64,000 nt of DNA from Kineococcus rubinsiae. Its GTDB lineage: Bacteria > Actinomycetota > Actinomycetes > Actinomycetales > Kineococcaceae. The DNA lies in NCBI RefSeq assembly GCF_011839805.1, contig NZ_VWPY01000005.1:1-64000 (forward strand). The letters run 5' to 3'. Made by a program: the position numbers and the translations under genes. This document shows positions 19,608-35,541 of this stretch, piece after piece. The first letter of the stretch is position 1. The number at the start of each line of letters is the position of its first letter. The notes below the pieces were generated by a model. The model was given only the letters and a program-made list of their open reading frames with translations. It made no database searches and had not been told where the DNA came from.

Positions 19608-19711
19608 GACGGTGCCAGGTCAGCCGCACTGACCGCGCGCTCATCGCGGCATGACCGGTAGAGGTGTTTGATCTTCAGGCGGGAGCTGAGGTGTCATGCC
19701 AGGCTGCGAGG

Positions 19712-20023
19712 ATGAGGCAGGACAGCAGACGAGGACGTCAAATCTGTGGTGCGGGACTCTTGGCCGTCGTGCTCGGCGGGTGCGGTGGGTCCGCTCCTCT
19801 GGAGGGACGTGAGGCCGCCGTCGCTAGCTGCAAGCAGTTGGCGACCGAGCAGTACGACCTCAAAGACGCAGGTGACGACCTTGACGTACGCGAGCTGTCG
19901 ATCGAGAACGGCGAGTCGTTCCGAGTGGATGGCGCATCCGATGACGTCAGCTGGACCTGCACGTGGACTTTCACTCTCACCGGCGAGACGCGGAAGGTTG
20001 AGGTCAGCGTCGACCAGCAGTGA
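19712..20023 (+). CDS. Small lipoprotein
   Basis: From the ATG at 19712 the 103-residue product has a basic N-terminus, a short hydrophobic core and a lipobox (LAVVLGGC, Cys about residue 24), followed by a soluble domain with two further Cys residues (Cys in AVASCKQL and WTCTWTF). An upstream GTG at 19664 would place the signal too deep. Likely exported and lipid-anchored; function unknown. It is divergent from the broken NUDIX gene. Confidence 0.65.
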   Translation: MRQDSRRGRQICGAGLLAVVLGGCGGSAPLEGREAAVASCKQLATEQYDLKDAGDDLDVRELSIENGESFRVDGASDDVSWTCTWTFTLTGETRKVEVSVDQQ

Positions 20024-20101
20024 CGTGGGGTGCCGCGTCACGTCCAGCAGCAGGTGCGAGTCCGGTCAGTCTGGTGCCGGAACAACCACTGCTCGCAGAT
20101 C

Positions 20102-20460
20102 GACATGAGTGCAAGATCATCTGGGGCTCGGGACGCTGGTCAGCCGTGCTCGGATCCGGGAGCTGATATCCACGTCGTGCGGTAGCGCCGCCTCCTCCTG
20201 GTAGGAGCGCCCTTCGAGCGGCTCGTCGGCCGACCACCGTGCACGCGGTCTGTGTCAGCGTCTCCAACGACTCGTAGGACCAGATGCCGCTGAGGCCACT
20301 GGCGGACCAGCCGCGGTCATCGAGCAACGTCAGCCGCCGCCCAGCGGCAAGCTCGAGCTCGTGCAGCGCCGAGATGGACAAACGGTCATCGTTGTCGAAC
20401 TCAACTCCTGGCCGTCTCGTCGATATCGATGAAGGTGATCAGTCGCCTGGCATCGGGCAT
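20102..20460 (-). pseudogene. Decayed copy of the repeat-borne ~136-aa gene (copy 2)
   Basis: The start MPDARRLITFIDIDETA at 20460 is soon followed by a stop; the later segment RRLTLLDDRGWSASGLSGIW to LETLTQTACTVVG reads in another frame. About 85 bp present in the sister copy (41110-41200) are missing, and the normal stop is lost. It is clearly homologous to 41030-41440. Confidence 0.75.
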
Positions 20461-20465
20461 GCCTA

Positions 20466-20765
20466 CAGCGTGGCGCACGCCAGTCCTGCACAAGCCCGGA
20501 CGCGGGGCCGAGATGCTGACTCTGCGTGACGCCAGTACTTGCCGGGTGGAGGTCACCCCATGGGAGCCGTCGTCGGGCGCGCAGTCGGGCACCGGTCAGT
20601 CACCTGGGAGGTTCTCTACAACAGCAAGTCGTGTCCCACAGCCGACCGGTTGTGAGACGCGGCAGGGGAGTGCTCAGCATGTGATCTGCAGCGGTAAGCG
20701 GCGTCTTGTTGGCGGCGCTGTATGGCGGGCCGACTGCCCACTGAGCGCGGCATGACCGCGCGCTC
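20466..20765 (+). repeat. Dispersed repeat copy 2 (right part)
   Basis: Follows the decayed gene and matches 42720-43018 nearly along its length, including GGTCAGTCACCT, CCCACAGCCGACCGGTTGTG then AGACGCGG, GCAGCGGTAAGCGGCGTCTT and GAGCGCGGCATGACCG. The latter can form a small hairpin (GCGCGG-CATGA-CCGCGC). A TGAGACGC box like that upstream of the resolvase at 44488 is included. Confidence 0.75.
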
Positions 20766-20834
20766 CGCGGGTCGCCATTCCAGAGTGTTAACAGGGGGTT
20801 GACGGTTCCTCCGAGTCGCGGTTCTCTTGGCGCC

Positions 20835-21344
20835 ATGGACGACCTGGCCGGATGGGGACAAGTGCTGGTGCACCGACCGGCGCACGAGCGGAATGAGACA
20901 GGAGCGCGACTGCAGACCAGTGGCGCTGACGTCGCCCGCGTAGGGCAGGTGCTGCTCGATGCTGGAGACGCTTTGACCGCAGCGGCCACCGCAGCAGAAG
21001 CAGCGGCGGAGGGGAGTGGGCGTTGGGCTGAGGAGTTCGGTGGAGCCGTCGCCGTCGCGGCAGCGTTGACGGAGCTGCAAGCTCATGCCGCCGCTGTGCT
21101 GGAGCGGGCCGCCACGTTGCGCGGGCAGGTGTACGCGAGCTTGCTGCAGCAGCACAGTCTGGCCGAGGTCGCCCGTGCGCAGGGAGTCAGCCGTCAGGCG
21201 GTGCACCGCGCCGCCCGCACGGCCGGTTCACTGCACGATCACCCCGCGAGCTTGCGCCCGGTAGATCCTCGCCCCCTAGGGCTGCAGCCGGCTGACCAGA
21301 CTCGCATCGCTCAAGGCGGTCGAACGAAGCAGAGCACGGACTAA
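20835..21344 (+). CDS. Helix-turn-helix protein, sigma-region-4-like
   Basis: The ATG at 20835 gives 169 residues (MDDLAGWGQVLVHR...). The first 90 residues are Ala-rich and helical. Residues about 112-137 form a helix-turn-helix (HSLAEVARAQGVSRQAVHRA) of the type seen in region 4 or small HTH regulators. A TTGACGG hexamer is about 40 bp upstream. It is followed after 11 bp by a membrane protein gene with a strong ribosome binding site, so the two probably form an operon, possibly a regulator and its membrane partner. Confidence 0.65.
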   Translation: MDDLAGWGQVLVHRPAHERNETGARLQTSGADVARVGQVLLDAGDALTAAATAAEAAAEGSGRWAEEFGGAVAVAAALTELQAHAAAVLERAATLRGQVYASLLQQHSLAEVARAQGVSRQAVHRAARTAGSLHDHPASLRPVDPRPLGLQPADQTRIAQGGRTKQSTD

Positions 21345-21355
21345 GGAGGAGAGCG

Positions 21356-22072
21356 GTGAGCTCTCTGGTGCAGGGGGACGCTACGGCCGGCGCTGAGGAG
21401 GATGCTCACCGTGCCGCCCGGTGGGCGATGGCAGCGCAGCTGCTGCGTCGGGTGACGGTGGCGCTGCTGATGGTGGTGCCGATGGCGATGTACGCCGCGG
21501 CGTTGGCTGAGAGCAGCCGCGCGGTCGGGTGGGGGCTGCTGGTCGTCGTGGCGCTGGCCGTGTGGTTCGCCGCCGACGCGGTGCAGGTGCGCGCCGGCTG
21601 GCACGTGCTGCCCGATCAGCATCTGCCACGTCGACGTGACGTGGCGCTGCTGGCGGGGGTAGACGTGGTCGGCGCGGTGCTGCTGATCGCTGGTTTCGGT
21701 GCGGTATCTGAAGCGGTGGGGCAGGTGCCAGCGTTGTCGGCGGTCCCAGGAGCTTTCCTGCTGTACGAGCTGGCCTGGTTCTGCAGCGCGGCCGCTATCG
21801 GTGCTGTTGTGAAGGTGCTGCCCACCCGGCGTGAGGCTGCTCGTGCGGGTCGCGGCGGGCGGCAACAAGGCTTGGTGAGGCGAACCCGGGTGGGCGTATG
21901 GGTGCTGGCCCCGGTGCACTTGGCCTTCGCGGTGGCCACGCTGCTGGTGGCGCAGGCGCGGGCGTTGCCGGAGGTGCGGGCCGACGATCTCGTCTTCAGT
22001 GCGTTGGCGGCTGCGGCGTTGCTAGCGGCTCCTCCTTTGCTGCGTCAAGGGCTGTCAGCACTTCGTCGCTAG
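21356..22072 (+). CDS. Six-segment membrane protein
   Basis: The GTG start at 21356 is preceded by AAGGAGGAG at six bases, an excellent ribosome binding site. The 238-residue product has about six hydrophobic segments (roughly residues 33-50, 58-75, 96-118, 132-152, 180-200 and 212-230) with a basic loop near 158-175. No family recognised. It lies 11 bp after the HTH gene on the same strand. Confidence 0.68.
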   Translation: MSSLVQGDATAGAEEDAHRAARWAMAAQLLRRVTVALLMVVPMAMYAAALAESSRAVGWGLLVVVALAVWFAADAVQVRAGWHVLPDQHLPRRRDVALLAGVDVVGAVLLIAGFGAVSEAVGQVPALSAVPGAFLLYELAWFCSAAAIGAVVKVLPTRREAARAGRGGRQQGLVRRTRVGVWVLAPVHLAFAVATLLVAQARALPEVRADDLVFSALAAAALLAAPPLLRQGLSALRR

Positions 22073-22146
22073 AAGCAAGCGGTGCCCCGAGCGCGCCATC
22101 TGCGGCGTGACCGAGTGCTCGGAGGCGTCCGACTCGGTACGGGCGG

Positions 22147-23019
22147 CTACATCGGGACGTTGGTCCCTCTGCTGAACACCTCAATGCTGTTGAGCGCGGT
22201 ACGCGGTTGGTACATGGTCAAGCCGTAGGAGTGCCCACTGCTGGTGGAGATCCATCCGATGCTGGTTCCGGACTCAGCAAGCTGCACCACCGCAGGCTCG
22301 TCGTTATTCAGCGTCACGCTCGTTGCGTCCGGACGATGTGCCTGCCCTTGACCCTGGATCGCCTGCAGGTCACTGCCGTAAGACAGCAGGATCCAGCTCA
22401 TCCCCTCGGCGGCAGCCTCAGCCGTGGTCGCTGTCTGCTCGTCGACGCTGGGAGGCAGGTAGAAGATCTCGACCTGGGTCAGGTCGGCGTCGGTGACACC
22501 TGATCCGGTGAGCGGGACGTCGCGATCGAAGATGGCATCACCGGTGCCGCTGGTGCACAGCATCCGGTAGCCCCTGAGCCGGGGGAAGGTCGGCAACGTG
22601 ATGCCCAGGTGCTCGCTCAGGCGTGAGCAGGACACCGGCGTCGTGTCCGCGGCCACTGGGATCTCCTGGATGAAGGGGTCATTCGTACCCTCCTGCAGAC
22701 CGTGCGGTTGTAGGGCGGTGACGGCGCGTTCGACGTCGGGCGTCACGTCCAGCGGCGTGCCTGTGGAGACATGCGGGTCGGAGGTGGCTGGGGTCAAGGG
22801 CACCTGTTCCTGCGCCCACGGGTGGGACCAGCCCAGCACGCCCACACCCACAAGCACCGCGGCGAGGGGCACGGACTGCAGCACGCGACGGTGTCGATGA
22901 CGGCGCACACCTGCGCTGTGAGCCCGCCGGCTCAGCCCTTCAGGCACAGGCAGCTGCTCGGCGGTGTCGTGCAGCTGCTGCCGCAGGCGGGTCTCGAAGT
23001 GGTCTTCGGAATCGATCAC
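22147..23019 (-). CDS. Membrane-anchored partner of a (truncated) sigma factor
   Basis: GTG at 23019 overlaps the stop of the upstream sigma remnant (GTGA) and has GGAGGG four bases before it, so it is preferred to the ATG at 23031. The 290-residue product has a basic N-terminal part with RRHRHRRVLQ, one membrane segment at about 46-65, and a large extracytoplasmic domain with a Cys pair (SCSRL, MLCTS). It matches the other sigma-partner proteins in this window in layout. It probably senses an envelope signal or acts as an anti-sigma. Its sigma gene has been cut by an IS110, so regulation is presumably lost. Confidence 0.68.
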   Translation of the reverse strand: MIDSEDHFETRLRQQLHDTAEQLPVPEGLSRRAHSAGVRRHRHRRVLQSVPLAAVLVGVGVLGWSHPWAQEQVPLTPATSDPHVSTGTPLDVTPDVERAVTALQPHGLQEGTNDPFIQEIPVAADTTPVSCSRLSEHLGITLPTFPRLRGYRMLCTSGTGDAIFDRDVPLTGSGVTDADLTQVEIFYLPPSVDEQTATTAEAAAEGMSWILLSYGSDLQAIQGQGQAHRPDATSVTLNNDEPAVVQLAESGTSIGWISTSSGHSYGLTMYQPRTALNSIEVFSRGTNVPM

Positions 23020-23172
23020 TGCACCCTCCATGGTCCTCGTGAGTCTGCCGCGTCAGTGGCCTGGCGTCGGGGCTCCTCCTGAGACGGCTGCTGCCGCTCG
23101 GCGGGCCCGGATTGATCGCCGCTGAGACGGCGCAGGGTGCGCAGCGCCTTGGAGGCCTGGGACTTCACCGAT
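23016..23172 (-). pseudogene. C-terminal remnant of a SigE-type sigma factor
   Basis: The frame reads SVKSQASKALRTLRRLSGDQ and continues to a TGA that overlaps the partner gene's GTG. The VKSQASKALRTLRR segment is the end of sigma region 4.2, as in the intact sigma genes at 35538 and 30021. Everything upstream is missing: the reading frame ends at the IS110 boundary (GGTCCTAT at 23173). Confidence 0.75.
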
Positions 23173-24470
23173 GGTCCTATAGATCGTCAAGTCGTCATCG
23201 CAGCTGGTTGGAGTGCTGACGAGACGTTGAGCTGACTGAAGTCTTCCATGATCGCGTGGTAGGCCTGGCGGGCGATGTAGCGCTTCAGGCAGCGCAGGAT
23301 GTCCCGCTTGGACAGACCCTCTTTGGTGCGGCGTTCGACGTAGGCGCGGGTCTGGGTGCAAAAGCGCATCCGGACGACGGCGATCATGTAGAGGGCGGAG
23401 TTGGCGGCCCGGTCACCGCCTCGTTGTAGGCGGTGGCGGTTGGTGATTCCGCTGCTGGCGGGGATCGGGCTGGCTCCGCAGAGCGCGGCGAACGCCGATT
23501 CGGAGCTCAGCCGCTGTGGGTTGCCGCCGGCGGTGACCAGGAGTTGACCGGCGTGCTCGGTGCCGACCCCGAACAGGGCCATGGTCTTGGGTGCTGTGGT
23601 GGTCAGCAGGTTCGTGAGGTGGACGTTGAGGCCGTCGATCTCGGTGGTGAGGTCCTCGACGCGGCGGCCGATGCATCGCATCGCCCACTTCGTGGCCTGC
23701 AGCGGCTCGTGCAGCCGGGCGGCGTCGGGGCGGTAGCGGGCCGCTTCCGCGGCCGCGGTCTTCAGCGGACGCTGGCGTAGTTCGTCTCGCAGCTGCTCAG
23801 GAGCGGTGATGATCAGAGCCTTGAGCTGGTTCAGCGCCGCGGTGCGGGCTTTGACGGCTCCCTGACGGGCAACGCGCAGCGCCCGAACAGCTTCCACGAC
23901 CGTGGTGGTGTCCTTCGGGGTGGCCACCGCCTCGCCGGGAAGTGTCCGTGTGGTGTTGCGCCGGCCTCGTGCCGGTTCAGTTGAGGCGGTCGTGGAGCCT
24001 GTCGCCGTGTGGGTACTGGCCAGGGCGCGGCGAGCGGCGTTCTCCGCATCGAGGGAGTCGGACTTGCCGCGCAGAGCCCGTAGTCGCCGGTCGGGGCGGT
24101 TGACCTCCAGCACGCTGACGTGTTCCTGCTGCAGGTAGCGGGTTAGCCCGGCGCCGCAGCTGCTGGTGCCCTCGACCCCGACCACGTGCAGGGTTCCGAA
24201 GCTTCGCAGCCAAGTCAGGACTTGCTCATAGCCGGTGGCGTCGGCGGTGAACTGGGCTGAGCCCAGCAACCGGCCCTGGCCGTCCAGGGCGGCGGCGTGG
24301 TGGGTGCGGCTGTGGGTGTCGACGCCGGCGATGACCTCGGCGGCTTTGCCGCTGCTGACATCGACGACTGCTGCGGTCATGCTGGTCATGTCCGTCCCTT
24401 TCCTCGCGGTGAGGGCGGGCTGGCCGGGTCGGGCGGACAAGACGGTGACGGGCTCTGGGCAGGGTCCTAT
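23173..24470 (-). mobile_element. IS110-family insertion sequence
   Basis: An intact IS110-type transposase gene (23187-24389) is flanked by the octamer GGTCCTAT at 23173-23180 and again at 24463-24470, which would define an element of about 1.29 kb, a usual size. There are no long terminal inverted repeats, as expected for IS110. The insertion joins the 3' end of a sigma gene on the left; the 5' part of that gene is not found on the right, so DNA was lost, possibly with the second IS110 insertion. Confidence 0.65.
23187..24389 (-). CDS. IS110-family transposase
   Basis: The ATG at 24389 (MTSMTAAVVDVSSGK) with AAAGGGAC upstream gives 400 residues. The N-terminal DEDD catalytic domain shows AGVDTHSRTHHAAALD, VEGTSSCGAG and KSDSLDAENAARR. 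The C-terminal Transposase_20 region has ALFGVGTEHAGQLLV and AFAALCGASPIPASSG with the nucleophilic Ser. No frameshift or stop is seen, so it looks active. These DEDD enzymes are RNA-guided (bridge RNA encoded in the noncoding ends), so the flanks at 23173-23186 and 24390-24470 are of interest. Confidence 0.9.
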   Translation of the reverse strand: MTSMTAAVVDVSSGKAAEVIAGVDTHSRTHHAAALDGQGRLLGSAQFTADATGYEQVLTWLRSFGTLHVVGVEGTSSCGAGLTRYLQQEHVSVLEVNRPDRRLRALRGKSDSLDAENAARRALASTHTATGSTTASTEPARGRRNTTRTLPGEAVATPKDTTTVVEAVRALRVARQGAVKARTAALNQLKALIITAPEQLRDELRQRPLKTAAAEAARYRPDAARLHEPLQATKWAMRCIGRRVEDLTTEIDGLNVHLTNLLTTTAPKTMALFGVGTEHAGQLLVTAGGNPQRLSSESAFAALCGASPIPASSGITNRHRLQRGGDRAANSALYMIAVVRMRFCTQTRAYVERRTKEGLSKRDILRCLKRYIARQAYHAIMEDFSQLNVSSALQPAAMTT

Positions 24471-24614
24471 GAGGTCACGTCCGCCCGGCTCAGCGCCGCC
24501 GAGGTGGTCGTGCAGCTGCCGGGTCGACAGATCACAGGTAAGACATCCACCGTGGTGGAGTCGGTCAAGCATGAGGTCAGACCCGGCGGCTGCACGACCA
24601 TCTCATCTTCACCG

Positions 24615-25869
24615 TCAACCAGCCGCCGCGAGAACGGTCTGTAGGGCCCGGTGCCGGGCGGGGTCGTAGGCGACGCCGTCTTACCAGCAACGCCAGATCA
24701 CGTGGAGCCAAGCGCGGGCGAGGATGCGGGTGGCGTGGGGGTGGTCGCAGCCGCGAGCACGGGCCTTGCGGTAGAGGTCAGCAGCCCAGGCGTTGGCGTG
24801 GTGGGAGTCCCCGGCGAAGTCGGTGACCGCTCCTCTGAGTTCCTTGTCGACGGCCCAGCGGAAGCTGACGATGCGGACCTTGCCGGACTGCCTGGTCGAT
24901 GGCGTCGCCCCAGCGAGGCTGGTCAGGGACTCCGGCGTTGGGGTAGCGGCCGCGGCAGTCGCCGATCTCGACGAGCAGCCGGGCGGCGCGGACGATCCCG
25001 GCCTTGGGTAGCGAGGTGAACACGACGGCGTCGGGGTGCGCGAGCAGCTGGGTCTCGATCTGCTCTTCCAGTGCCTTGATCTGCGTCCGCAGCGCGCTCA
25101 GGCCGGCGACGAGGGCGGTCGTGATGTGGGCTCGGGCCTCGGCCTAGTCCCCGACCGTGCCGCGGGTCGCCGCGCTCAGGTGGGCGTGCAGCTGCTCGGC
25201 GCGGGCGGGTTGGGGGTAGTGCTGGGTCCGCAACCAGGCTTCGAGTCGACGCGGGGTGAGCCAGTCGACCTTGGCCTGGGTGGGGAAGCGGGTGAGGAAG
25301 GCGAGGGTGATCGCGGAGTCGACGTCACGGAACAGCTTGATCGCCCCGGGTAGGACGTCTTCGAGCTGCGCGCGTAGTTGATTGGCCATCGCGATGCGGG
25401 CCGCGACGAGGTCCTTGCGGGCCCGGACGGTCATCCGCAGCGTGACCGTGGCGGGGGAGTCTGGGGTGAGGGGGTGCAACCGGCGGCGGTCGGTGCGGAC
25501 GGTGTCGGCCAGGACGTAGGCGTCGAAATGGTCGTCCTTGTTCCCTGCTGCGCCGTAGCGGTGGCTCAGGTTCTTCACCTGCCCGGGGACGATGACGAAG
25601 ACGGCGAACCCGGCCTCGAGCAGCGCGTCGACGATGGGCCCGTCGCCGCGCTCGATCGCGACCTCGCCGACCCCAGCACGGGTCAGCAGGCGAGTCATCC
25701 GGTGCAGGCCGGCGGTGGTGTGCTCGACCATCTCCCGGACGGTCTGGACGCCCGAGGCGTCGACGACGAAGACGGCGTGGTCAGCGCTGGCCCAGTCGAT
25801 ACCCGCGGTGGGTGCGGTGAAAAGGTCCTTGACCTCTCGACGTGCGGCGTTGACGTATTCGACACTCAT
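24615..25869 (-). pseudogene. Decayed IS110-family transposase (copy 1)
   Basis: Starts at ATG 25869 (MSVEYVNAARREVKD) with CAAGGAGGACC upstream. The DEDD part is intact in sequence (TAGIDWASADHAVFVVDASG, NKDDHFDAYVLADTVR). It is then interrupted by a nonsense codon (CAG to TAG) near 25144, an extra base near 24944 that shifts the frame before the C-terminal serine region, and a TAA near 24690. It is the closest relative of 50381-51634, with different inactivating changes. Confidence 0.88.
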
Positions 25870-26145
25870 GGTCCTCCTTGCTGTTGGCGCAGCAGGTGGG
25901 CACCTGGTGGTCTCAGGACGTGGAAGCCGGTCGCTCACTGATCGGCGCTCGATGGCGCATAGCCCTGTCGCCAGTCACTCCCGTCCTGGGACCACCGGAC
26001 CCCGCAGTACTCATGCCGGACTTGGAGGGTCAGCGCGCGTGGGGCGGTGGTCCGGTGGTGTCCAAGTGCACCAGCAGCCTGGTGCTGCTGGCACCGCACA
26101 CGGTGCCGCAGGGGACCGCTGGCGGGGAAGAGTCTGCGCAGTGAG
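24615..26145 (-). mobile_element. Decayed IS110 element plus long 5' region (copy 1)
   Basis: Besides the transposase pseudogene, about 275 bp upstream of its start (25870-26145) are shared with the region 50105-50380 in reverse orientation, ending at a CTGCGCAGTGAGCGCG / CGCGCTCACTGCGCAG boundary. The shared 5' region is where IS110-type elements often keep their guide RNA. The two copies are inverted relative to each other, 24 kb apart. Confidence 0.75.
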
Positions 26146-26160
26146 CGCGAAGAGCTGGAG

Positions 26161-27174
26161 TCAGTGGGGGGTCGGACGTGTGGTGTCTTCTTCGCTGTCG
26201 AGCAGCCACTGCCAGAGGTGGATGGTGCTGTCTTCGCCACCGGTGCGTAGTGCGACGAGGGTGCGGGCGATGCGGTCGACGTCGCGCATCTGCGGGCTGT
26301 TAGCACCATAGGCCTCGGCGGTGGAGGTGTAGAGCGAGCCCAGCGTGTCCTTGTCGTTGTCGGTCAGGCTCGCGGCCGCGCCACGTAGGCGGGAGGCGAA
26401 GGCAGCGAATCGATCTTGACCGCCGCTGGTGCTGTGGCCCATGCCGCCGAGCACCTGTTGTGGGGTGAGTACTGCGCCGGCAGCCTGGAGCAGGGCGAGG
26501 CGCTGGCGGGGGCGGGGCGCCAAGACCGCGGAGGGGTCGCTCTCACCATTGGAGCCGGTCCTAGAGGTGGCGTAGACCAAGCTTTCCAAGGCGTTGAAAT
26601 CGCTGGCTCCCATGGGAGCCAACCCGGGGTTGAGGCGCTGGCGCAGGAAGTCCTCCGGCAGAGCGCTGTCCTTGATCGCCTTGCTGGTCAGGATGCGTTG
26701 GGCGGCGGCTTCATCGTCAGGGCTGAACTCGAAGACCACGGGCTGACCGTGCTCGTTGAACGTTTTTCCGACGGCATCGACCATAATCTCTGGTGGGACG
26801 CTGCGGTAGTCAGCGAGGTCGAAGGCGATCTCGTCAACACGCTTAAGATCGACACCTTGCTCACGTGCGGTGTCGTACAGGGTGCTCAACGCGTCGCGGT
26901 CGGTGGCGGTGAGGTAGTTGAAGACAAGGCCGCTGGAGGGCTGAGGGCCGTAGGCGGACTTCGGTTGCGCGGTGGAGTCGCCGTGGAAGAGGCGGTTGAG
27001 CATCGTCGCTCGGCCACTGATCTGGACGCTGTCGACAGCGGTAGGCCCAGCCGTGCCCGCGGTGCTGGTGCCCACCTTGGGTGCAGCATGGGGGGTGGTC
27101 ACCCTGGCGATGGGGGTGCTTGCTGAAGTGGCGGCGGACCGGTAGATGGACCTGACCTGGTCGACGGTGCTCAT
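26161..27174 (-). CDS. Hypothetical secreted-or-cytosolic protein (DSVQISGRA motif)
   Basis: From the ATG at 27174 (MSTVDQVRSIYRSAATSAST) the product has 337 residues; the longer frame reaches into the repeat array and lacks a better start. It begins with a disordered Thr/Ala/Pro region. The motif VDSVQISGRATMLNRLF at about 52-68 is like flagellar-regulator or effector leader patterns (weak). A helical body with an EF-hand-free, charged composition follows. No membrane segment. No family recognised. The C-terminal end is Thr/Asp-rich. Confidence 0.55.
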   Translation of the reverse strand: MSTVDQVRSIYRSAATSASTPIARVTTPHAAPKVGTSTAGTAGPTAVDSVQISGRATMLNRLFHGDSTAQPKSAYGPQPSSGLVFNYLTATDRDALSTLYDTAREQGVDLKRVDEIAFDLADYRSVPPEIMVDAVGKTFNEHGQPVVFEFSPDDEAAAQRILTSKAIKDSALPEDFLRQRLNPGLAPMGASDFNALESLVYATSRTGSNGESDPSAVLAPRPRQRLALLQAAGAVLTPQQVLGGMGHSTSGGQDRFAAFASRLRGAAASLTDNDKDTLGSLYTSTAEAYGANSPQMRDVDRIARTLVALRTGGEDSTIHLWQWLLDSEEDTTRPTPH

Positions 27175-27258
27175 AGTGGTCTGCTTCCGCTGGTAACGGT
27201 CCCTCCGGTCTTCCTTTGCCTCATCGGCGGTGAGGCCGGGACCTGACCCCCACCTGGC

Positions 27259-27476
27259 TTGGACAAGTAGCTGAGACGTTGGGACAAGTCCACTGAGACG
27301 TGGGACAAGTTCACTGAGACTGGGACATCTGTACTGAGACGGGACAAGATGTCCGTTCTCAGTCATCTTGTCCCGGCCCGAGGCTGCGACCTGCGGTGGG
27401 ACGGATCACTTGAGACAACCAGGGCCCGACCTGGCTCATCCAACTTGTCCTTGTCGAAGGTCACCGGGACCCTGGG
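27259..27476 (+). repeat. Transposon-end-like array, copy 1
   Basis: Contains a series of GGGACAAGT ... CTGAGACG units at about 20-22 bp spacing (27260, 27281, 27302, 27321 and 27341). A perfect 11-bp inverted repeat GGGACAAGATG (27341-27351) / CATCTTGTCCC (27364-27374) follows, and the right side ends in CTCATCCAACTTGTCCTTGT then CGAAGGTCACCGGGAC. A second copy lies at 34131-34365 and a fragment at 14849. The layout resembles multiple transposase binding sites at a Tn7/Mu/Tn5053-type end. Confidence 0.75.
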
Positions 27477-27593
27477 GCGCCGCGCCCGGCAGTGAGGCGG
27501 GGGGAGTGGTACCCCAAGATCGCGCCCGGACGGCGCCATGATCGCGAGGTCGGCGGTCTGCTCGAGGGCGTGCTGGGTTGCCATGCTGGTTGC

Positions 27594-28014
27594 ATGCACC
27601 CCGAGCTGGACGCAGCGCTGGCACCGCTCTTGGTCGACCTGCAGGTGCCCAGCGGTGTCGTGCCAACCGTGGGCAACCGTGAGTGGCAGGACTACCCCGG
27701 TGCTGCCAGCTGCTGGTTGCACAGCCCCGATGGCACCGGCATGGGGGTGGGTCCAGACCGGGCAGCCCTTCACCGTGCAGGTGCTCGCCCTGGCCGACCA
27801 GGTGCAGGAGTGGGCGGTGGAGGCGCTGTGGCAGCTCGGGCGGCCAGCGTCGTGGCCGGCCTGCCCGTACCACCCCGACCGGCACCCTCTGGCTGCGCGT
27901 GAGCACGACGATCACGCGGTGTGGGTCTGCCCCGTCCTGGACGCCAGGGTCAGCACCATCGGAGCCTTGGTGGGCTTCCGCAGCCGCAAGCGGCACCTAC
28001 GGCGCCGCACCTAA
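27594..28014 (+). pseudogene. Hypothetical gene with a frameshift
   Basis: Frame one gives MHPELDAALAPLLVDLQVPS through REWQDYPGAASCWLH to about 27745. The neighbouring frame then continues as QTGQPFTVQVLALADQVQEW and WPACPYHPDRHPL to the stop at 28014. The joint product of about 140 residues looks natural (W-x-C and HPL blocks recur in an actinobacterial family of unknown function). The shift sits in the G-rich ATGGGGGTGGGT run, so error or decay are both possible. Confidence 0.6.
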
Positions 28015-28053
28015 TCGCGCCATGACCGCGCGTGTGTAGGTGATGCTGGATCG

Positions 28054-28386
28054 GTGCAAGCGAGCCTGACTGATGAGCAGTGGAACGCAGTGGAGTCAGG
28101 GCAGGTGATCAGCCCTGCCGGCCGCCGGTTCACGCGCCGCTCGAGCCGCATCAAGCGTCGAGACGCTGACCCGCTGATCGCAGGTGGGGCTCCGCTGGTC
28201 CTCTACTGGTTCGGTGGTCGGCAGCTCGACTACTTCGACGGCACCGAAGCCGTGGAGCAGTGGAAGGTCGTGCGCCAGGCCTTGACTAGTCAGACACCAC
28301 AGTTGCGTGGCGACGTCGTCTGGACCGGCGGGCTCTGGGTCGGTGATGACGACGAGGATCTGCTGCTACTGACCGGGCAGTGCTGA
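28054..28386 (+). CDS. Small hypothetical protein
   Basis: The 110-residue product (GTG start at 28054) is soluble, with MQASLTDEQWNAVESGQVIS at its N-terminus and an acidic C-terminus. The start has only a weak ribosome binding site (GGTGATG region). It lies 40 bp after the frameshifted gene on the same strand, separated by a CGCCATGACCGCGCG motif. No family recognised. Confidence 0.5.
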   Translation: MQASLTDEQWNAVESGQVISPAGRRFTRRSSRIKRRDADPLIAGGAPLVLYWFGGRQLDYFDGTEAVEQWKVVRQALTSQTPQLRGDVVWTGGLWVGDDDEDLLLLTGQC

Positions 28387-28521
28387 GCTCACAACACACG
28401 ACATGACCGTGCGGTCACGCGAAGGCAGTGAGGACCTCAGCTGGGCTGAGCCGGCGCGGTGCGGACCGTCCCCTCCCAGGCAGTCCGCACCAGCACCGGC
28501 TCGACCGGGCGTTGCCGAACC

Positions 28522-29481
28522 TCAGTGCGCGGCGGCGCCGACACTCCGGCGGCCGCGCCGAAGCGCCCGAACGAGGAGAAGCACGGCCAGCAGGAACAAG
28601 ATCGACATGAAGGTGGGCGACTGCCACGAGGCGGTCAGCAGTGCCTGCCGGCTCAGCACTACTGCCGCGGCTAAGGCGGCGCGGCCATCGACGATGCTGG
28701 CCAGCACGAGTAGCGCCAGCGCGATGAGCGGTGCAAGTGCTACAGCGGTGTCCTGCGGACTGTTCGGTGCTGTCGCCTGCAACACGCCACCCAGACCGGC
28801 CACGGCCATCACCAGCCAGCTGAACCGCCACCGCCACGGCCGTGTCGCCGCCGCCACTGCGGCTACCCCGCTGCGAGATGAGGCGACAGCGACTGCGGCC
28901 ACCAGTAGTAGCGCGAACACCGGTAACCCCAGGTTGTCCAGCCACGGGTTGACCACGCCGTAGCGGCTGATTGTCTCGCCGGGGCCGCTGTTCACGAGGT
29001 TGTTGGCCATCACGGTCAGCAGGTTCAACGCCGCCATCACCGCCGCCGCAGTGACCTTCCCGCGCATCACCAGCAGGAAGCCGGCCAGCGCTGACACCAG
29101 GCTGGCGACACCGAGGCCGGTCAACACCGGAGTCGTGGAGATGTCGCCACGGGCCCCTGCGAGCAGGAACCAAATGTGGCCCGACATCGAGCTAGCCAGG
29201 AGGAGGACCATCGCCCAGCGCAAGCCCTCCAGGAGGGTGCTCGGGCGCTGGCTGAGTCCGATCTGCGCGCGGGCGCGCAGCGCGCCGTTGACCAGTGCGA
29301 GAACCTCCTGAGCTCGTACGCGGGGCGGGTCGCCGGCGGTGTCCAGCAAGGTGCTGAGCGCCTCCTCGCCGTGCTCATGGCGGAAGGGGCCCGGGTACAG
29401 GCGCAGCCACCGGCGGTAGGTGCGCTCGACCCGCAGAGAGCGTTCCTGCGCCCGGTTGGTCGACTGCTGCGCGGAGCTCAT
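28522..29481 (-). CDS. Polytopic membrane protein coupled to a PadR regulator
   Basis: The ATG at 29481 overlaps the PadR stop (ATGA), giving 319 residues. A cytoplasmic segment (VERTYRRWLRLYPGPFRHEH, then GEEALSTLLD) precedes about seven hydrophobic stretches. The YRRxxRLYPxxxRxxxG.E block is common in permease-associated actinobacterial membrane proteins. The coupled PadR strongly suggests PadR-controlled expression of this protein, perhaps in membrane stress or export. Exact role unknown. Confidence 0.7.
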   Translation of the reverse strand: MSSAQQSTNRAQERSLRVERTYRRWLRLYPGPFRHEHGEEALSTLLDTAGDPPRVRAQEVLALVNGALRARAQIGLSQRPSTLLEGLRWAMVLLLASSMSGHIWFLLAGARGDISTTPVLTGLGVASLVSALAGFLLVMRGKVTAAAVMAALNLLTVMANNLVNSGPGETISRYGVVNPWLDNLGLPVFALLLVAAVAVASSRSGVAAVAAATRPWRWRFSWLVMAVAGLGGVLQATAPNSPQDTAVALAPLIALALLVLASIVDGRAALAAAVVLSRQALLTASWQSPTFMSILFLLAVLLLVRALRRGRRSVGAAAH

Positions 29482-29843
29482 GCCATCCCCCATCCAGGTG
29501 CGAAAGCGGTGCCGGCCGCACCGATGCCTCGACCACGCGTGGCTGCGCCCGTCACGACACGTGCAGCTGCGGTCATCCGCTCGGCCTCCGCGTGTACCGC
29601 CGTCCGTCCGGCCGAAGTCAGGGAGTAAGTGCGGCGAGTGCGGCCACCGACCACTTCAGGTTCCCCCGCACTGATGAGTCCCTCGCCGGCCAGGCGGTCC
29701 AGTGCGCCGTACAAGGTGCCCGTGGACAGGTGCACACGGTCTTCGGACAGAGCACTGACCTGTTGGAGGATCGCGTAGCCGTGCTTAGGACCGTCCAGCA
29801 GGGCAGCGAGGGTGAAGTAGGTGGGCTCACGCAGCGGAGGCAT
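29478..29843 (-). CDS. PadR-family transcriptional regulator
   Basis: The start MPPLREPTYFTLAALLDGPK at 29843 fits PadR proteins (121 residues). The winged helix shows HGYAILQQVSALSEDRVHLS and TGTLYGALDRLAGEGLI, then RRTYSLTSAGRTAV, all canonical. PadR proteins are usually repressors that respond to small molecules and control an adjacent membrane protein; here the partner overlaps by four bases. Confidence 0.85.
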   Translation of the reverse strand: MPPLREPTYFTLAALLDGPKHGYAILQQVSALSEDRVHLSTGTLYGALDRLAGEGLISAGEPEVVGGRTRRTYSLTSAGRTAVHAEAERMTAAARVVTGAATRGRGIGAAGTAFAPGWGMA

Positions 29844-30020
29844 GAACCGACCATAGGTTGGTAGCCGACATGTCGACGTCCGACACGCCGCTGTCCTGTG
29901 CCCTGTGCTTGGCGCGAGCAGCGGCATGACCTTGAGATGCGGGGGTCCGTCGCGCGAGCTTGAGTCGATCGGCGCGATGCTCTGTCAACCTTTCGAGACG
30001 CTGACCTCGTTGAAGGAGAC

Positions 30021-30719
30021 ATGGGGCTACTGGGCCGGCGCGACGAGGAGTTCACCACCTTCGTCGCCCAACACGGCGACGCGCTGCTGCGCGCCGCCCA
30101 CTTCTTGACCGGTGACCCGTGGGCGGCGGAGGACCTTGTCCAACTCGCCTTGACCAAGACCTACCTGGCCTGGCCAGCGGCTCAAGGCAAGGTGTCTTAC
30201 GCCTACGCCCGGCAAGCTTTGCTGAGTGCCCACACCGACACCTGGCGGCGACGTCGCTGGCGTGAGGACACCACCGCCCCCGAAGACCTGCCTGCTCACC
30301 CACCTGCCGGTGCCGCTGCTGGCGCGCCGACCTGGGCCGATCCCGCGCACACGGTGGCCGACCATGACGCGGTGGATCAGGCGCTGCGACGACTGACACC
30401 GCGCGAACGCGCCGTCATCGTCTTGCGCTACCTCGAAGACCTGACCGAGAAGGACACCGCTGCCCTGCTGAACGTCAGCATCGGCACCGTCAAGGCCCTG
30501 CACTCTCGAGCTTTGGCCAAGCTGCGCGCGGACCCTGCCAGCGCACAGATGAGCGATGAACCACCCAGCCCGCTCGGCGCAGCCGTCGCTGCGCACTCAC
30601 CGGTGGGCAAGAGCGCTGAGCCCCTCGGCAGCGCCGAGCTCACCACCGGTCGTGGGCTCGGCATCTCCCGCTTCGTCAGTCGCGCTACCAGGAAGGACAG
30701 CAGCTGTGTCGATCAGTGA
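30021..30719 (+). CDS. SigE-family ECF RNA polymerase sigma factor
   Basis: The 232-residue product has region 2 at about 8-75 (EFTTFVAQHGDALLRAAHFL, DPWAAEDLVQLALTKTY) and region 4 at about 125-180 (RERAVIVLRYLEDLTEKDTA, SIGTVKALHSRALAKLR). It is followed by about 50 low-complexity residues, unusual for the family. The ATG at 30021 has GAAGGAG seven bases upstream. The next gene starts 14 bases before its stop. ECF factors direct RNA polymerase to a small regulon and are normally held by an anti-sigma. Confidence 0.88.
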   Translation: MGLLGRRDEEFTTFVAQHGDALLRAAHFLTGDPWAAEDLVQLALTKTYLAWPAAQGKVSYAYARQALLSAHTDTWRRRRWREDTTAPEDLPAHPPAGAAAGAPTWADPAHTVADHDAVDQALRRLTPRERAVIVLRYLEDLTEKDTAALLNVSIGTVKALHSRALAKLRADPASAQMSDEPPSPLGAAVAAHSPVGKSAEPLGSAELTTGRGLGISRFVSRATRKDSSCVDQ

Positions 30720-31338
30720 GCAGCAGATCCGCCAACACCTACGCACCGCCCCCGTCACCGGCGCGGTCGATGTTGCGGCCATCATCGCCACCGGCCGCCG
30801 TCGCCTGCGGGCACGCCGCCAGCGACGTGTTCTGGCCGCGGTCGTCCCCGCCCTCGCGGTGGTCATCGCCACCGGTGTGGCCCTCGAGCACCCAGGCCGC
30901 GGTGGCTACGAGCTGGTGGCGGCAGGCCTCACCTTGAGCGCGAGTTCGCAGGGGTCGGTACAGGTCGACACAGACCGGGTCGACATGGGCAACGGGCTGC
31001 AGGCCTGGCGCGAAGGTGACGTCGTCAATGTTGGCTACCCCAACGGTGCTTATAGCTGGATGGACATGAAGGAGTGGACACAACAGCAGCGTCCACAAGG
31101 CCAGTACGACCTCGCGACCTACGGTGGGGAGGGAGCTGGCGCGAGCAGCACAGTCGTCGTAGGAGCTGTGCGCGGTGAGCCGAAGCAGGTGAGCGCGACC
31201 ATCGAGGGAACCACGGCCACAGCCACCATCGCCTGTTTCACCCAAGCCGAAGGCTGGTGCGTCTACGCCGCCCTGGTGCCGGCGATGGTGACTGACTACT
31301 CCATCGACCCGGCGGCGGAGGTCGACATCCAGTTCTAA
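30706..31338 (+). CDS. Membrane-anchored sigma-partner protein
   Basis: GTG at 30706 (VSISEQQIRQHLRTAPVTGA) overlaps the sigma gene. The 210-residue product has a cytoplasmic N-terminus, a basic RRRLRARRQRR block, one membrane segment (about 41-60) and an extracytoplasmic domain with two Cys residues (IACFTQAEGWC). Same gene order and topology as four other sigma/partner pairs in the window, so it is probably an anti-sigma or sensor. No ZAS zinc motif is visible. Confidence 0.68.
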   Translation: MSISEQQIRQHLRTAPVTGAVDVAAIIATGRRRLRARRQRRVLAAVVPALAVVIATGVALEHPGRGGYELVAAGLTLSASSQGSVQVDTDRVDMGNGLQAWREGDVVNVGYPNGAYSWMDMKEWTQQQRPQGQYDLATYGGEGAGASSTVVVGAVRGEPKQVSATIEGTTATATIACFTQAEGWCVYAALVPAMVTDYSIDPAAEVDIQF

Positions 31339-31454
31339 GGCGCACGTCACGTTGGTACGTCGCAGACTCCGACTGCGCGGACGGCGGCGTGAGTGCGTCT
31401 TCACCCCACCGGCGCTATGACCGTGCGTCTGGCCATAGAGTCGGGCAGCCCCAA

Positions 31455-32039
31455 TCAGCTCTGTGAAGCAGCGCCGAGGCGCTGCGTAGCGGGACGTACA
31501 CCTGGCTCGTTGTTGGCTGCGCTCCACAAAGCGTGGGCGATGGCGAAGTACCCGAACAAGCGCCCACCAGACTCCGTGCGCATAGCCAGAGCGTCGATCG
31601 CGTCGGCGCCGAGGTCGACGTAGTTGCGGCAGCGGTGGGTGAGCTGGTCGAAATCATCAGGAGCCAGGCTGGTCGCGCGCCCGATCGTGACATCGATGAG
31701 CTGAGGGCTCCCTTGTCCAGCCTGCAAAGCCGCTGTAAAGGCTCGTCCCTGCTTGATGCACTCGGCAGCGCTGGTCAACCAGGACTGAAGCGCTCCGCTA
31801 CTGGCTTCCGGATCAGCCCACGGTGGGACCGGTAGCTCTTCCAGCTGCTTGCGCAGCATGCTCACAGCCTCGAGAGGAGCTGCAGCGTCCACGTCCACGC
31901 CGAGGGCACGCCCCATCTCGATGAGCTGGTGCTCGAGGGTGCGGGTGGTCAGGGTGAGCCGGGCCAGGGCCAACAGGTACGGCTCGGCTTCGGTGGAGTC
32001 TTCCCAATGCGTCCTGTTCACCTGGTCAGCGTGGTCCAT
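31455..32039 (-). CDS. Hypothetical helical protein
   Basis: The ATG at 32039 (MDHADQVNRTHWEDSTEAEP) gives 194 residues; the longer frame upstream has no conserved look. The protein is helical, with no membrane segment, and ends in a Ser/Ala tail. No family recognised. It faces the sigma/partner operon at 30706 (convergent). Confidence 0.55.
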   Translation of the reverse strand: MDHADQVNRTHWEDSTEAEPYLLALARLTLTTRTLEHQLIEMGRALGVDVDAAAPLEAVSMLRKQLEELPVPPWADPEASSGALQSWLTSAAECIKQGRAFTAALQAGQGSPQLIDVTIGRATSLAPDDFDQLTHRCRNYVDLGADAIDALAMRTESGGRLFGYFAIAHALWSAANNEPGVRPATQRLGAASQS

Positions 32040-32230
32040 GCCGCCGAACGAAAGCATCCACCTCTGGGGGGACCTAGACGCCTGCTTCAAGGACGTGGCG
32101 GTACACCCTCGATCAAGACGCCACCTTTGGCTGGGATCGCGCAGGCAACGACGTCTCAACATCAGTGCGGGTCTCCTGCGGTGGGTCTGGCGGTGCAGCT
32201 CCTCTCTTGTCACCGCACCGCCGACCCACT

Positions 32231-33181
32231 TCAGCAGCTGTGCTCGGGCACCGAGCCAGGCCCGCACAGTGGGGGCTGCGCTTGGGGTGCGGTGTCGCTG
32301 GGCTCCTGCACGAGCTGGGTCATGCGCCACTCCACGTCCCCGTGCTCGTCGAGGTAGTGGCTCTCGAGCAGGGTCCCGGTCTCGGGATCGAGGATGTAGA
32401 CGATGCGGAACCAGCCTTGGTCGAGCTCATCACGCTCGATCGCGGTGCCGTGACGGCCGATGGCGTCGGTCATGGGACCCACGAGCTCGACATCGGGGAT
32501 CTGCGCGGCAACTTCCCACAGCGCTTGACGCAGTGCCGGTGATGCGGGGCTCTCCCGCAACATGCCGGTCACGGTCTCCCACAGCTCGTTGTCCTCCCCG
32601 GAAGGATGGCCGGCGACGTTCTCGCGCAGCAGGGCCCCGAGTGCGTCGGGGTCGGTGGGCAGGGCCTCGAGGTCCTGCCAGGAGAACGCGGCGCCACCGC
32701 CGGCGGGAAACCTGGCCGGGACACCGTCTGAATCCGTCCGGACCTTCGTGGGGTCGACGACATCCCCGGTCACACCGCTGCCCTCATCACGCATGACGCT
32801 CTCTTGGGTTCGTCCCAACCAGATCTCGCGCTGGTACGGCTTGGTAGCGGGGTAGTCGACTTCGGAGCGCACGTACCAGTACGGGGCCCCGGTGGCCGGG
32901 TCGGGCTGCTGACCTGCCGCCTTAGCGGTCACGAGCAGCACTTGCTCTGCTGAGGCTGACGGGGCAGTGGCCAGAGGCAGAACCAAGACCGTCGCGGCTA
33001 CAGCGGCTGCGCCGGCCAGAGCGGTGATGGCCCAGCGGCGCGAGCGACGACGGCGAAGCGCTACGACGCCGGTGTCGGCCTGCCCCATCGCGTCCTGGAG
33101 TTGACGGTGCCCGGTGTGCAGCTGATCGTGGGTCGGCTCGCTCACGCTGCCGGCCTGCTTGGCGAGGATGTCGATGTTCAT
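32231..33181 (-). CDS. CU044_5270-like membrane protein coupled to an ECF sigma gene
   Basis: The 316-residue product has a cytoplasmic N-terminus, a basic RRRRSRRWAI, one membrane segment at about 52-72, then an extracytoplasmic domain with PYWYVRSEVDYP and a conserved ALRQALWEVAAQIPDVEL section and a Cys near the C-terminus. This layout is typical of the CU044_5270 family found beside ECF sigma genes. It overlaps the upstream sigma gene by ATGA. Role inferred as anti-sigma or envelope sensor. Confidence 0.75.
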   Translation of the reverse strand: MNIDILAKQAGSVSEPTHDQLHTGHRQLQDAMGQADTGVVALRRRRSRRWAITALAGAAAVAATVLVLPLATAPSASAEQVLLVTAKAAGQQPDPATGAPYWYVRSEVDYPATKPYQREIWLGRTQESVMRDEGSGVTGDVVDPTKVRTDSDGVPARFPAGGGAAFSWQDLEALPTDPDALGALLRENVAGHPSGEDNELWETVTGMLRESPASPALRQALWEVAAQIPDVELVGPMTDAIGRHGTAIERDELDQGWFRIVYILDPETGTLLESHYLDEHGDVEWRMTQLVQEPSDTAPQAQPPLCGPGSVPEHSC

Positions 33182-33744
33182 GGGGAGTCCTCCAACGGAA
33201 CGAGGGAGCGAGCAGCAGTGGCCAAGAAGGTCTGAGCCCGCTGGCGGGCCCGGAAGAGACGCGTACGAACGACCGTCGAGGCCACCCCGAGGGCTTGTGC
33301 GGCCTCGGTGACACTGAGTCTTTCCCAGGCGACGAGGAGGAAGGCCTCTCGTTCGGCAGGGCTCAGTGATGCCAGTGCCTGGCGTAGCTGGTCGCGCTGC
33401 GCGCGGGCATCGACTCGCTCGTCGACCGCATGCCAGTCGACCCCCACGTCGGTGTCGATCACAGCGCTGGGTCGCTGCTTGCGCAGGTGGGCCCGCACGA
33501 TGTTGCCGCTGATGCCGTACAGCCAGGGCAGGGCTGAGCCGCTCTTGTGGGGGCGGTAGCGCTCCCGAGCCTCCAGCGCCGCGACGAAGACGTCACCGAG
33601 CAGGTCTTCAGCCGCCACCGGCCCGGCGCGCCGGGCGATGAAGCGGAACACTGCCGCCGCATGCCGCTCGTAGAGCTCACCCAAGGCCTCCGGGCGCAGC
33701 AACGACCGGGCCAAGAGCTCACCATCTGTCGACTCGTTGGTCAC
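33178..33744 (-). CDS. ECF RNA polymerase sigma factor
   Basis: The GTG at 33744 (VTNESTDGELLARSLLR) has TAGGAG four to five bases upstream, giving 188 residues. Region 2: RHAAAVFRFIARRAGPVAAE, DLLGDVFVAALEAR. Region 4: LASLSPAEREAFLLVAWERL, TEAAQALGVASTVVRTRLFR. It overlaps its membrane partner by ATGA at the 3' end. This is a compact ECF factor without a C-terminal extension. Confidence 0.88.
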   Translation of the reverse strand: MTNESTDGELLARSLLRPEALGELYERHAAAVFRFIARRAGPVAAEDLLGDVFVAALEARERYRPHKSGSALPWLYGISGNIVRAHLRKQRPSAVIDTDVGVDWHAVDERVDARAQRDQLRQALASLSPAEREAFLLVAWERLSVTEAAQALGVASTVVRTRLFRARQRAQTFLATAARSLVPLEDSP

Positions 33745-34446
33745 CACACTCCTATGCGTCACGGGCCAAGAGCGTGACAGCCGAGGCGACGTGCGCAGCA
33801 AGACGTGTCTGCGCACCCCGGCAGGCAACCGCACGCAGGAGGGTCCCTACATGCGCTTGGCGGTGACCATGACGTCGTCCCTCGGCGGGGGAGTAGATCA
33901 CCCTGTGTGCCGTCATCTTGCTGGCGGCTCTCAGCGTCCGTTAGGTGACCCGGCCGCCGCCAGGTGATTACTGGGCGCCGGCCCTGAGTCCGAATTGGTC
34001 GCGGTCACGGTCAGGTCCGCCCGGCCACCTATGGGGCGTTGGAGCCCCTTCAGGTGCTGCTTGACCCGCGTCCAGTCGAAGCACCTTCGGTGCTGGCGTG
34101 TCCTTCGTTGCCGGGTGCAGCCTGGGGTCGCTGGGACAAGTAGCTGGGACGTTGGGACAACAAGACTGGGACGTGGGACAGGTTCACTGGGATTGGGACA
34201 TCTTTACTGGGACGGGACACAAACCGCCGCCTGTCCGTTCTCAGTCATCTTGTCCCAGCTCGAGGCTGTGACCAGCGGTAGGACAGGTCACTTGAGACGG
34301 TCGGGGCCCGACCTGTCTCATCCAACCTGTCCTTGTCGAAGATCACCGGGACCTGGGGGCGTCACGATTGGTAGCCAGGCCCTGCTGGGACCCTCCCGTG
34401 AAGGTGCGTTGGCTGGCTGGTCCCCGACGCCCGGCAGCATGGACTG
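33745..34446. other. Intergenic stretch with transposon-end array
   Basis: No gene is visible. The right part is the array at 34131-34365. The left part (33745-34130) has no clear structure beyond a GGGGAGTAGATCACC-type stretch. The expected promoter of the sigma operon must lie close to 33750-33850. Confidence 0.4.
34131..34365 (+). repeat. Transposon-end-like array, copy 2
   Basis: Same order of units as at 27259-27476: GGGACAAGTAGCTGGGACG, GGGACAACAAG, GGGACAGGTTCACTGGG, then CTGTCCGTTCTCAGTCATCT then TGTCCC, and CTCATCCAACCTGTCCTTGT followed by CGAAGATCACCGGGAC. The TGAGAC units of copy 1 are mostly TGGGAC here and the perfect hairpin is weakened by an insertion, so this copy has diverged. 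Confidence 0.75.
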
Positions 34447-34598
34447 ATGCGGACCACGGACGAGAAGCTGACGGTCGAGCTGGCGGAAGGTATCGACGCC
34501 GAACGCGAGGCAGCAGGCATCTGGGCCCGCGCGACCGCCAGGAGGACCAGCTGCCTTCGGCGGCCCCGGTGGAGGACAAGCTCGCGGGCATCCGGTAG
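34447..34598 (+). pseudogene. Small hypothetical gene, frameshifted
   Basis: MRTTDEKLTVELAEGIDAER, then EAAGIWARATARR, reads in one frame; after about 34545 the next frame gives DQLPSAAPVEDKLAGIR and a stop. The joint product is about 50 residues. The pattern is that of a small conserved actinobacterial protein, but I cannot name it. Confidence 0.4.
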
Positions 34599-34692
34599 AC
34601 GCTGGCCGAGCGGCATCTGCGGTCGCCGTCAGCCGCGCGACCGCACGGACGGCGGCGTGAGCGCACAGCCAGCGGCCTGCCTGGACGGCTTC

Positions 34693-35541
34693 CTATGGCC
34701 AGGAGATGTCGGTGAAGGACGGGTTGGTGGCCAGGGCTCGTAGCTGGGCGGTGCTGATGAGAGGGGAGTCGAAGGAGCGGCCAGGGGCTAGGTCGGCTTC
34801 GGTACTGGCGTCGAGACGGGTGTCGGCGCTGACGACGCGCCCATCGGGGTAGATCGCGGTGACGCTGGTGTGCCAGCCCTGCAGCTCGCCCCCAGGTGAC
34901 TGATTTTCTCGCACGAGGCGAGTGTCGAGGATTCGTGTGGTGACCAGCCGAATGCCTTCGGTCAGTTGCTCGGTGGTGCACTGGGCCTGCGGCAGGCAGG
35001 TGGTCTGTTCGGTGGAGATGAAGCCGTCGGCCAGGCTGCCGACTTGGACGCTGAGGGCAGCTAGGGGAGTGCTGCGCCGGTCCTGGTAGGTCATCGACCA
35101 GCCCAGCATCTTCCCGGTGTCGCCGTCGCTCACCGGTCCGACTGAGACGGTCCGGTTCAGGTCGGCGTCGATGCTGAGGAGGGCGTCGCGGAAGACGGTG
35201 GTGGCGATGGACTGCGGGTCAGGGATCCGCGACGGGGACGGGACAGCCGGCTTCGGACTGGCCGGCGGTGCGCTGGCGACCGGTACCTGGGTGGTGGATG
35301 TCCACGACCCGTGCGAGGTCCACAGCGCACCGGTGACGACGAGCAGGGCGGCGGCGGTCGGTAGGGCCACCAGGGTGCGGCGCCGGGTGCGTCGGCGGCG
35401 GCCGCGTTGACGTACCTCGTCCAGGTCAATACTCGGGGGTGGGGGGCGGACGCCCGTGATGGCGTCGGCCACGGCTCGCGCGAGGGGGTCGGTGGCCCCG
35501 CCCGGACCGGCCGGGCCGGTGGTGTCGAAGGAGCGGGTCAT
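34693..35541 (-). CDS. Membrane-anchored sigma-partner protein
   Basis: The ATG at 35541 (MTRSFDTTGPAG) overlaps the sigma stop (ATGA), giving 282 residues. A Pro-rich cytoplasmic part, an Arg block (RQRGRRRRTRRRT), one membrane segment (about 58-75) and a large external domain with two Cys residues (TTCLPQAQCTT). Same topology as the other partner proteins. Probably anti-sigma or sensor. Confidence 0.7.
   Translation of the reverse strand: MTRSFDTTGPAGPGGATDPLARAVADAITGVRPPPPSIDLDEVRQRGRRRRTRRRTLVALPTAAALLVVTGALWTSHGSWTSTTQVPVASAPPASPKPAVPSPSRIPDPQSIATTVFRDALLSIDADLNRTVSVGPVSDGDTGKMLGWSMTYQDRRSTPLAALSVQVGSLADGFISTEQTTCLPQAQCTTEQLTEGIRLVTTRILDTRLVRENQSPGGELQGWHTSVTAIYPDGRVVSADTRLDASTEADLAPGRSFDSPLISTAQLRALATNPSFTDISWP

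Follow-up and report, generated by a model that had tools for sequence, protein, structure and literature searches.

Abutting right and left ends of a Tn7-like transposon family without detected tns genes in Kineococcus rubinsiae

IS21 ends carry several transposase sites, and Tn5053/Tn402 elements, which have a resolvase gene with a res site and are without TnsA, target the res sites of serine resolvases. For Tn7, the consulted sections of PMC8649781 give three sites in the left end (LE) and four in the right end (RE), and Tn5053 ends are described there as multi-site as well; the same sections present the actinobacteria-dominated Tn7-like clade of Benler et al. 2021, of which no member had been experimentally characterised. 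The repeat array studied here occupies positions 27259–27476 of a 64,000-nucleotide stretch of Kineococcus rubinsiae DNA (the window), which lies on contig C54. A first-pass annotation, made from the letters alone, had taken it for a TnsB- or Mu-like multi-site transposon end without a transposase. We conclude that this segment is very probably a head-to-tail junction of two Tn7-like transposons, formed by the RE of a first element (E1), 3 bp and the LE of a second (E2), and that the junction recurs at 34133–34344.

The array begins with four units on the plus strand, which start at 27260, 27281, 27302 and 27322 (spacing 21, 21 and 20 bp) and have the consensus GGGACAAGTNNACTGAGAC. When the window was searched for this unit with up to five mismatches, six hits were obtained on the plus strand, in two tight clusters, and six on the minus strand, five of them within the ends described below. 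Sixty dinucleotide shuffles gave a mean of 1.4 hits over the two strands together and at most 5; in none did three hits come together within 70 bp, as against two clusters of at least three sites in the real window. The regular repetition at about 20 bp noted at first pass is thus borne out, and so is the diverged second copy, which we place at 34130–34361, with 83% identity to the first and an unchanged layout. By BLAST against its own genome the array was found in three places, namely the two window copies and contig C34 (10485–10607), where the LE stands alone. A search of 59 genomes, the own genome included, returned a match in six, and a search of the PLSDB plasmids with the array returned none.

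The sites of the array itself all lie on the plus strand, those in the part beyond the hairpin run minus, plus, minus, and the tips of two different ends face each other. Outside the window copies there are 11 matches, of which four cover the first half only (query positions about 12–98), five the second half only (about 100–222) and two, in G011 and on contig C27 of G002, both halves. The aligned first half ends in GGGACA; the second starts with TGTCCGTTCTCAG and has three sites, forward, reverse and forward as read from the tip. On sequence grounds, the repeats are multi-site transposon ends of the TnsB type, and the two halves are the RE and the LE of one kind of transposon. The idea of TnsB-type ends without a transposase is therefore supported, no tns gene having been detected in the window copies, and the accompanying idea of solo ends is refuted by the facing halves, which are RE–LE junctions of neighbouring elements.

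From left to right the window holds an LE starting at 14764 and an RE ending at 27346, an LE starting at 27350 and an RE ending at 34219, and finally an LE starting at 34232. E1 (14764–27346, plus strand, about 12.6 kb) and E2 (27350–34219, plus strand, 6,870 bp) are each bounded by their own ends. The RE of E1 (27260–27346, plus strand) has four TnsB-type sites and the tip GGGACA at 27341–27346; a spacer of 3 bp (AGA, 27347–27349) separates it from the facing LE of E2 (27350–27462, plus strand), which has the tip TGTCCG, sites at 27356 (minus), 27398 (plus) and 27433 (minus) and a conserved inner stretch after these. At the second junction the RE of E2 (34133–34219, plus strand), again with four units and the tip GGGACA, is followed by a 12-bp spacer (34220–34231) and the LE of a third element, E3 (34232–34344, plus strand), whose RE was not found on C54 in the orientation of E3. 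The two REs (27260 versus 34133) agree at 75 of 87 positions and the two LEs (27350 versus 34232) at 99 of 113. The inner LE stretch past the third site (GTCGAAGATCACCGGGACC-like; 27452–27475 and 34334–34357) is conserved in the LEs of relatives too. Just past the window, at C54:65809–65895, lies an RE-like four-site array in the opposite orientation, for which an LE partner was not found.

The remaining end, the LE of E1 (14764–14876, plus strand), is worn: it has the tip AGTCCG and three sites and, aligned from 14768, shares 63% and 68% identity with the other two LEs, compared to 49–55% for eight shuffles. The match reported earlier at 14849–14876 (28 bp, 89% identity) does lie beside an Avs gene, confirmed as Avs2 (10529–14734, minus strand; PADLOC, E=1.6e-264), but it is the inner portion of this three-site LE rather than a mere fragment. 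With its start 29 bp beyond the LE of E1, Avs2 is a neighbour, not cargo of that element. The cargo of E1 comprises an AbiEii-type gene at 15074–16396 (PF08843, 4.3e-28), a tyrosine recombinase at 17676–18851 and IS110-type pieces at 23187–24572 and 25144–25938, and that of E2 includes sigma-70-family genes at 30021–30719 and 33178–33834; E1 and E2 are recognisable as head-to-tail elements with different cargo. In the stretch 32231–38998, the sigma-70-family genes at 33178–33834 and 35538–36149 and a similar frame at 38438–38998 (by eye) are each followed by a frame without a known family, a regulator pair repeated around the second junction. Eight Tns queries against C54 and C109:20001–80000 detected no tns gene in the window elements (best E=0.12). 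A target-site duplication, the check proposed at first pass, was not readable around E1 or E2, the flanks of which mismatch, and a plain 5-bp duplication does not match the spacers of 3 and 12 bp; such a duplication could have vanished through wear or later insertion.

Across the first junction runs a perfect inverted repeat of 12 bp (27340–27351 and 27364–27375), in place of which copy 2 has imperfect 26-nt arms that are 73% complementary. The perfect hairpin announced by the first-pass annotation is therefore present, but it occurs at the first junction only and is read as incidental. If it were given weight, together with the overlap between the array and the start of a minus-strand open frame (26161–27366), it would point to a structured RNA or to a regulatory array of a neighbouring gene. 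We consider this exceedingly improbable: the hairpin is not conserved between the copies, the window has no Rfam match and in relatives this sequence forms the end of a transposon.

The relatives in question are two of 11 congeneric genomes, G010 (locus L014) and G002 (Kineococcus siccus R8, locus L016), where the frame just inside the same RE encodes TnsA (PF08722, E=1.9e-06 and 1.3e-08, respectively); TnsA was found in these two only, the own genome being negative. A TnsB query from locus L087, described below, gave a near full-length match in G002, with rve and Mu-C domains above the Pfam cut-offs, and a weak, fragmentary one of 26 bits in G010. All four tns genes beside this RE are not visible in K. 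siccus because the contig ends within tnsB. The search for a linked transposase proposed at first pass thus has a positive answer, and the tnsA and TnsB linkage excludes the outcome named there as contrary to the transposon reading, namely an array without a linked transposase in any genome. In the K. rubinsiae genome neither the TnsA nor the TnsB search gave a match, so that no helper was found in the own genome.

With tnsA among the linked genes the family is Tn7-like rather than Tn5053-like. The ends could also belong to another multi-site DDE element, either of the IS21 type or of the Tn5053/Tn402 type without TnsA, both of which have several transposase sites in their ends as well; IS21 was considered first for this very reason. 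However, TnsA and then TnsB adjoin this RE, the linkage to tnsA being present in two genomes, and an IstB profile gave only partial matches in the own genome, in frames of 435–904 aa, none of them IstB-sized. An origin from such elements is accordingly very unlikely, and IS21 was rejected on the partial IstB matches and on the linked genes being tns.

When the order was searched for TnsA, 37 of 396 genomes gave a match; tnsA, tnsB, tnsC and tniQ were seen together in L087 and L135 only, both more distant than the congeners. In the compact element L087 (genome G380), an RE tip at 7452 is followed by TnsA, TnsB, a TniB-type TnsC, a TniQ of about 293 aa and an LE tip at 12985, so that the ends lie 5.5 kb apart with the tns genes between them; its LE sites are ordered forward, reverse, forward as in the window, and apart from the four tns genes a single open frame, of 99 aa, is listed in it. 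TnsC, TniQ and Mu-C of L087 pass the Pfam cut-offs, and TnsA (21.9 and 19.9 bits) and rve (26.1 bits) are below them. The full set of four is also present in L135, from Kribbella, where TnsA scores 26.7 bits against a cut-off of 26.5, and TniQ measures about 290–340 aa in the two loci. Directly outside both tips of L087 there is a 17-bp near-repeat with one difference (7435–7451 and 12986–13002), which is too long for an ordinary 5-bp duplication.

Junctions of RE and LE were also seen by eye in L005 (8 bp between the tips) and in L004 (6 bp, the RE being worn). Three tnsA genes share one strand within 22 kb of G288, and the RE of one tnsA-bearing element abuts a facing tip with 6 bp between them (by eye), which extends stacking beyond the gene-less copies. 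The RE–LE unit of about 210 bp might itself be a small element that is mobile or was duplicated, comparable to a MITE with inward tips, or a captured circle junction, as the two junction units of the window are alike throughout (86–88% identity over both halves), such units exist in L004 and L005 too, and E2 as a unit was not found in the 11 congeneric genomes searched, 10 of which matched a 10.2-kb E2 query in pieces only. Against this, outside the window there are nine matches to a single half and only two to both, the RE borders tnsA by itself in L014 and L016, the ends of L087 enclose tns genes, and the spacers vary (3, 12, 8 and 6 bp). We therefore hold a small element of this kind to be improbable. 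What can be established from the letters is an abutting RE and LE of a Tn7-like family without detected tns genes, and the best reading of the window elements is that they belong to an actinobacterial Tn7-like family as cargo-only members and were stacked via repeated insertion.

The chromosomal relatives give an indication of where such insertion takes place. In L014, L015 and L016 the RE is adjoined by a short palindrome, CCGATAATNNNCATTATGWCA, which we take to be dif-like. An exact dif-like pattern was present in 144 of 394 genomes of the class, once in 143 of them and twice in G720, and the reversed control gave none; the core is thus mostly single copy per genome. Within the genus, seven of 11 genomes have the site, one each, and in five of these seven an RE-like array lies 37–43 bp away on the same side, with gaps of 43 (G000), 42 (G002), 39 (G006), 40 (G010) and 37 bp (G005), the last (locus L188) being counted with an ambiguous tip. 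Inspection by eye of the other two, G001 and G007, from 120 bp ahead of the site to 230 bp past it showed no RE-like array. TnsA was found only in G002 and G010 among the five array-bearing congeners, which means that gene-less copies may occur at dif. The site of the own genome is on contig C109, where the RE is diverged and LE remnants are found about 2.5 and 4.4 kb beyond. A strict pattern of dif plus tip matched one of the 394 class genomes, the own one, in a sample that lists no other congener.

Other lineages have a comparable arrangement, with gaps of 64 bp in L087, 38 bp in L090, 54 bp in L135 and 61 bp in L175 (dif reversed); in L099 a dif-like site also precedes tnsA. Among 69 TnsB loci, that is 79 less the 10 with under 1.5 kb upstream, six have a site with at most two mismatches 0.8–1.5 kb before tnsB, versus none of 432 control windows. 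When a looser core was applied to all 79 loci, seven had a dif-like site, L145 being the additional one. The site is reversed in L140, L151 and L182, about 1.2 kb before tnsB. By eye, L087, L090, L135 and L165 have a second small palindrome around TTCATCAGATGAATC, about 20–30 bp from the dif-like core, which is absent by eye from the Kineococcus sites. Altogether, these data strongly suggest that chromosomal relatives insert beside a dif-like site, and some lineages appear to home to dif. A single dif-homing clade found no support: the six dif-labelled TnsB rows need 5 changes versus 5.9 when shuffled, and 45 of 500 shuffles were as low, on a quick tree of 97 rows in which L103 and L086 form very long branches. 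Among the best 21 TnsA matches outside the genus (48 listed), three are at dif, nine lie upstream of dnaK, four are at ATAACGG-type positions and five are unlabelled; the dnaK-upstream and ATAACGG-type positions look like two further attachment sites. The elements upstream of dnaK (L091, L093, L096, L097, L098, L100, L101, L102 and L104) point away from that gene.

From these arrangements we infer a course of events in which TnsB would bind the sites of both ends, four in the RE and three in the LE, the element would be excised by TnsA and TnsB, and TnsC together with TniQ, possibly in contact with Xer, would place it at a fixed distance from the target, which for the chromosomal Kineococcus copies would be the dif-like site. 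Repeated homing at the same distance would push the older element away and leave an RE and an LE separated by a few bp. The cargo-only E1 and E2 may have been moved by a transposase acting in trans, or may have lost their tns genes after insertion; both are now located on a plasmid-like contig in which no dif was detected.

This contig, C54, has 155,692 bp and a GC content of 0.65–0.71, compared to 0.71–0.77 on C109:20001–80000, and encodes a ParA-like protein, a MobA/VirD2-type relaxase, a TraG/TraD-type protein and two serine resolvases. Given the GC contrast and the ParA-like, relaxase and TraG/TraD-type genes, C54 is probably a plasmid; its ends do not overlap, and it could instead be an integrated element of large size. 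A search of it for dif-like sites gave nothing below four mismatches, and the stack may have arrived there through another insertion pathway or have moved there after stacking at dif. About 1–2.5 kb from the two serine resolvase genes are copies of a near-palindrome around AGATAACGTCCTTTATCT (47079–47104 and C54:130951–130979), possibly a recombination site.

A reading that joins all of this would be that several actinobacterial Tn7-like lineages, that of Kineococcus included, home to dif at 37–64 bp from the core, that a small TniQ reads the bound host XerC/XerD, and that cargo-only copies keep just their ends, are mobilised in trans, stack head to tail and reach plasmids, as in the window stack beside Avs2. 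We put this joint reading forward tentatively and with some doubt. If it were true that TniQ reads XerCD at dif, a testable Tn7-like element guided by a host recombinase would be at hand. At the level of the locus, an unexplained repeat has become a boundary, and a plasmid-like contig can be said to carry two elements whose ends and cargo are defined. The dif site, single-copy in most genomes that show the pattern, is indicated as an attachment site for transposons with TnsA, TnsB, TnsC and TniQ, and stacking offers a route by which cargo islands could grow at one site. The literature searched, with most subscription papers outside its scope, yielded no account of a dif-homing TnsABC-TniQ element, nor was one present in the consulted parts of PMC11472951, PMC12907356 and PMC8987985.

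What that literature does describe, in the consulted part of PMC10132070, is dif hunting by single-gene TnsB-like insertion sequences of Acinetobacter. Elements of the IS1202 family such as ISAjo2 share with the present family, as far as those pages go, a TnsB-like transposase, TGT/ACA tips, an extra transposase site near each end and insertion beside dif or pdif. They differ in being about 1.5 kb long, without TnsA, TnsC and TniQ, and in lying 5 bp from the XerC site; here the gap is 37–64 bp, relatives have a Tns operon with tnsA and tnsB, and the window elements measure 6.9 and 12.6 kb.

A second likeness is to Tn6022, in which, according to the consulted part of PMC10293859 (Faure 2023), an Xer-recombinase-like TnsF guides insertion and TniQ is small, a feature given there as a hallmark of elements that have further target selectors. 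TnsF is encoded by the element and targets comM, and the sole mention of Xer in those pages is that TnsF resembles XerH. With the "res site hunters" Tn5053/Tn402 the family has in common that its probable target is a recombination site for resolving DNA, and it differs from them in that the site is dif-like and TnsA, in relatives, adjoins the same RE.

The closest match is the Tn7-like actinobacterial clade. The window copies depart from it in being stacked head to tail and in having neither detected tns genes, which autonomy would entail, nor a 5-bp duplication, and copies in Kineococcus and in part of the other relatives adjoin a dif-like site, a position that the consulted sections of PMC8649781 do not mention for the clade. 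They agree with it in the arrays of TnsB-type sites at about 20 bp in both ends, three in the LE and four in the RE, in the TGT...ACA tips (worn in the LE of E1), in defence-type cargo and, to judge from relatives, perhaps also in a tnsA-tnsB-tnsC-tniQ operon, seen whole in the more distant ones, and in insertion at a fixed distance from a target.
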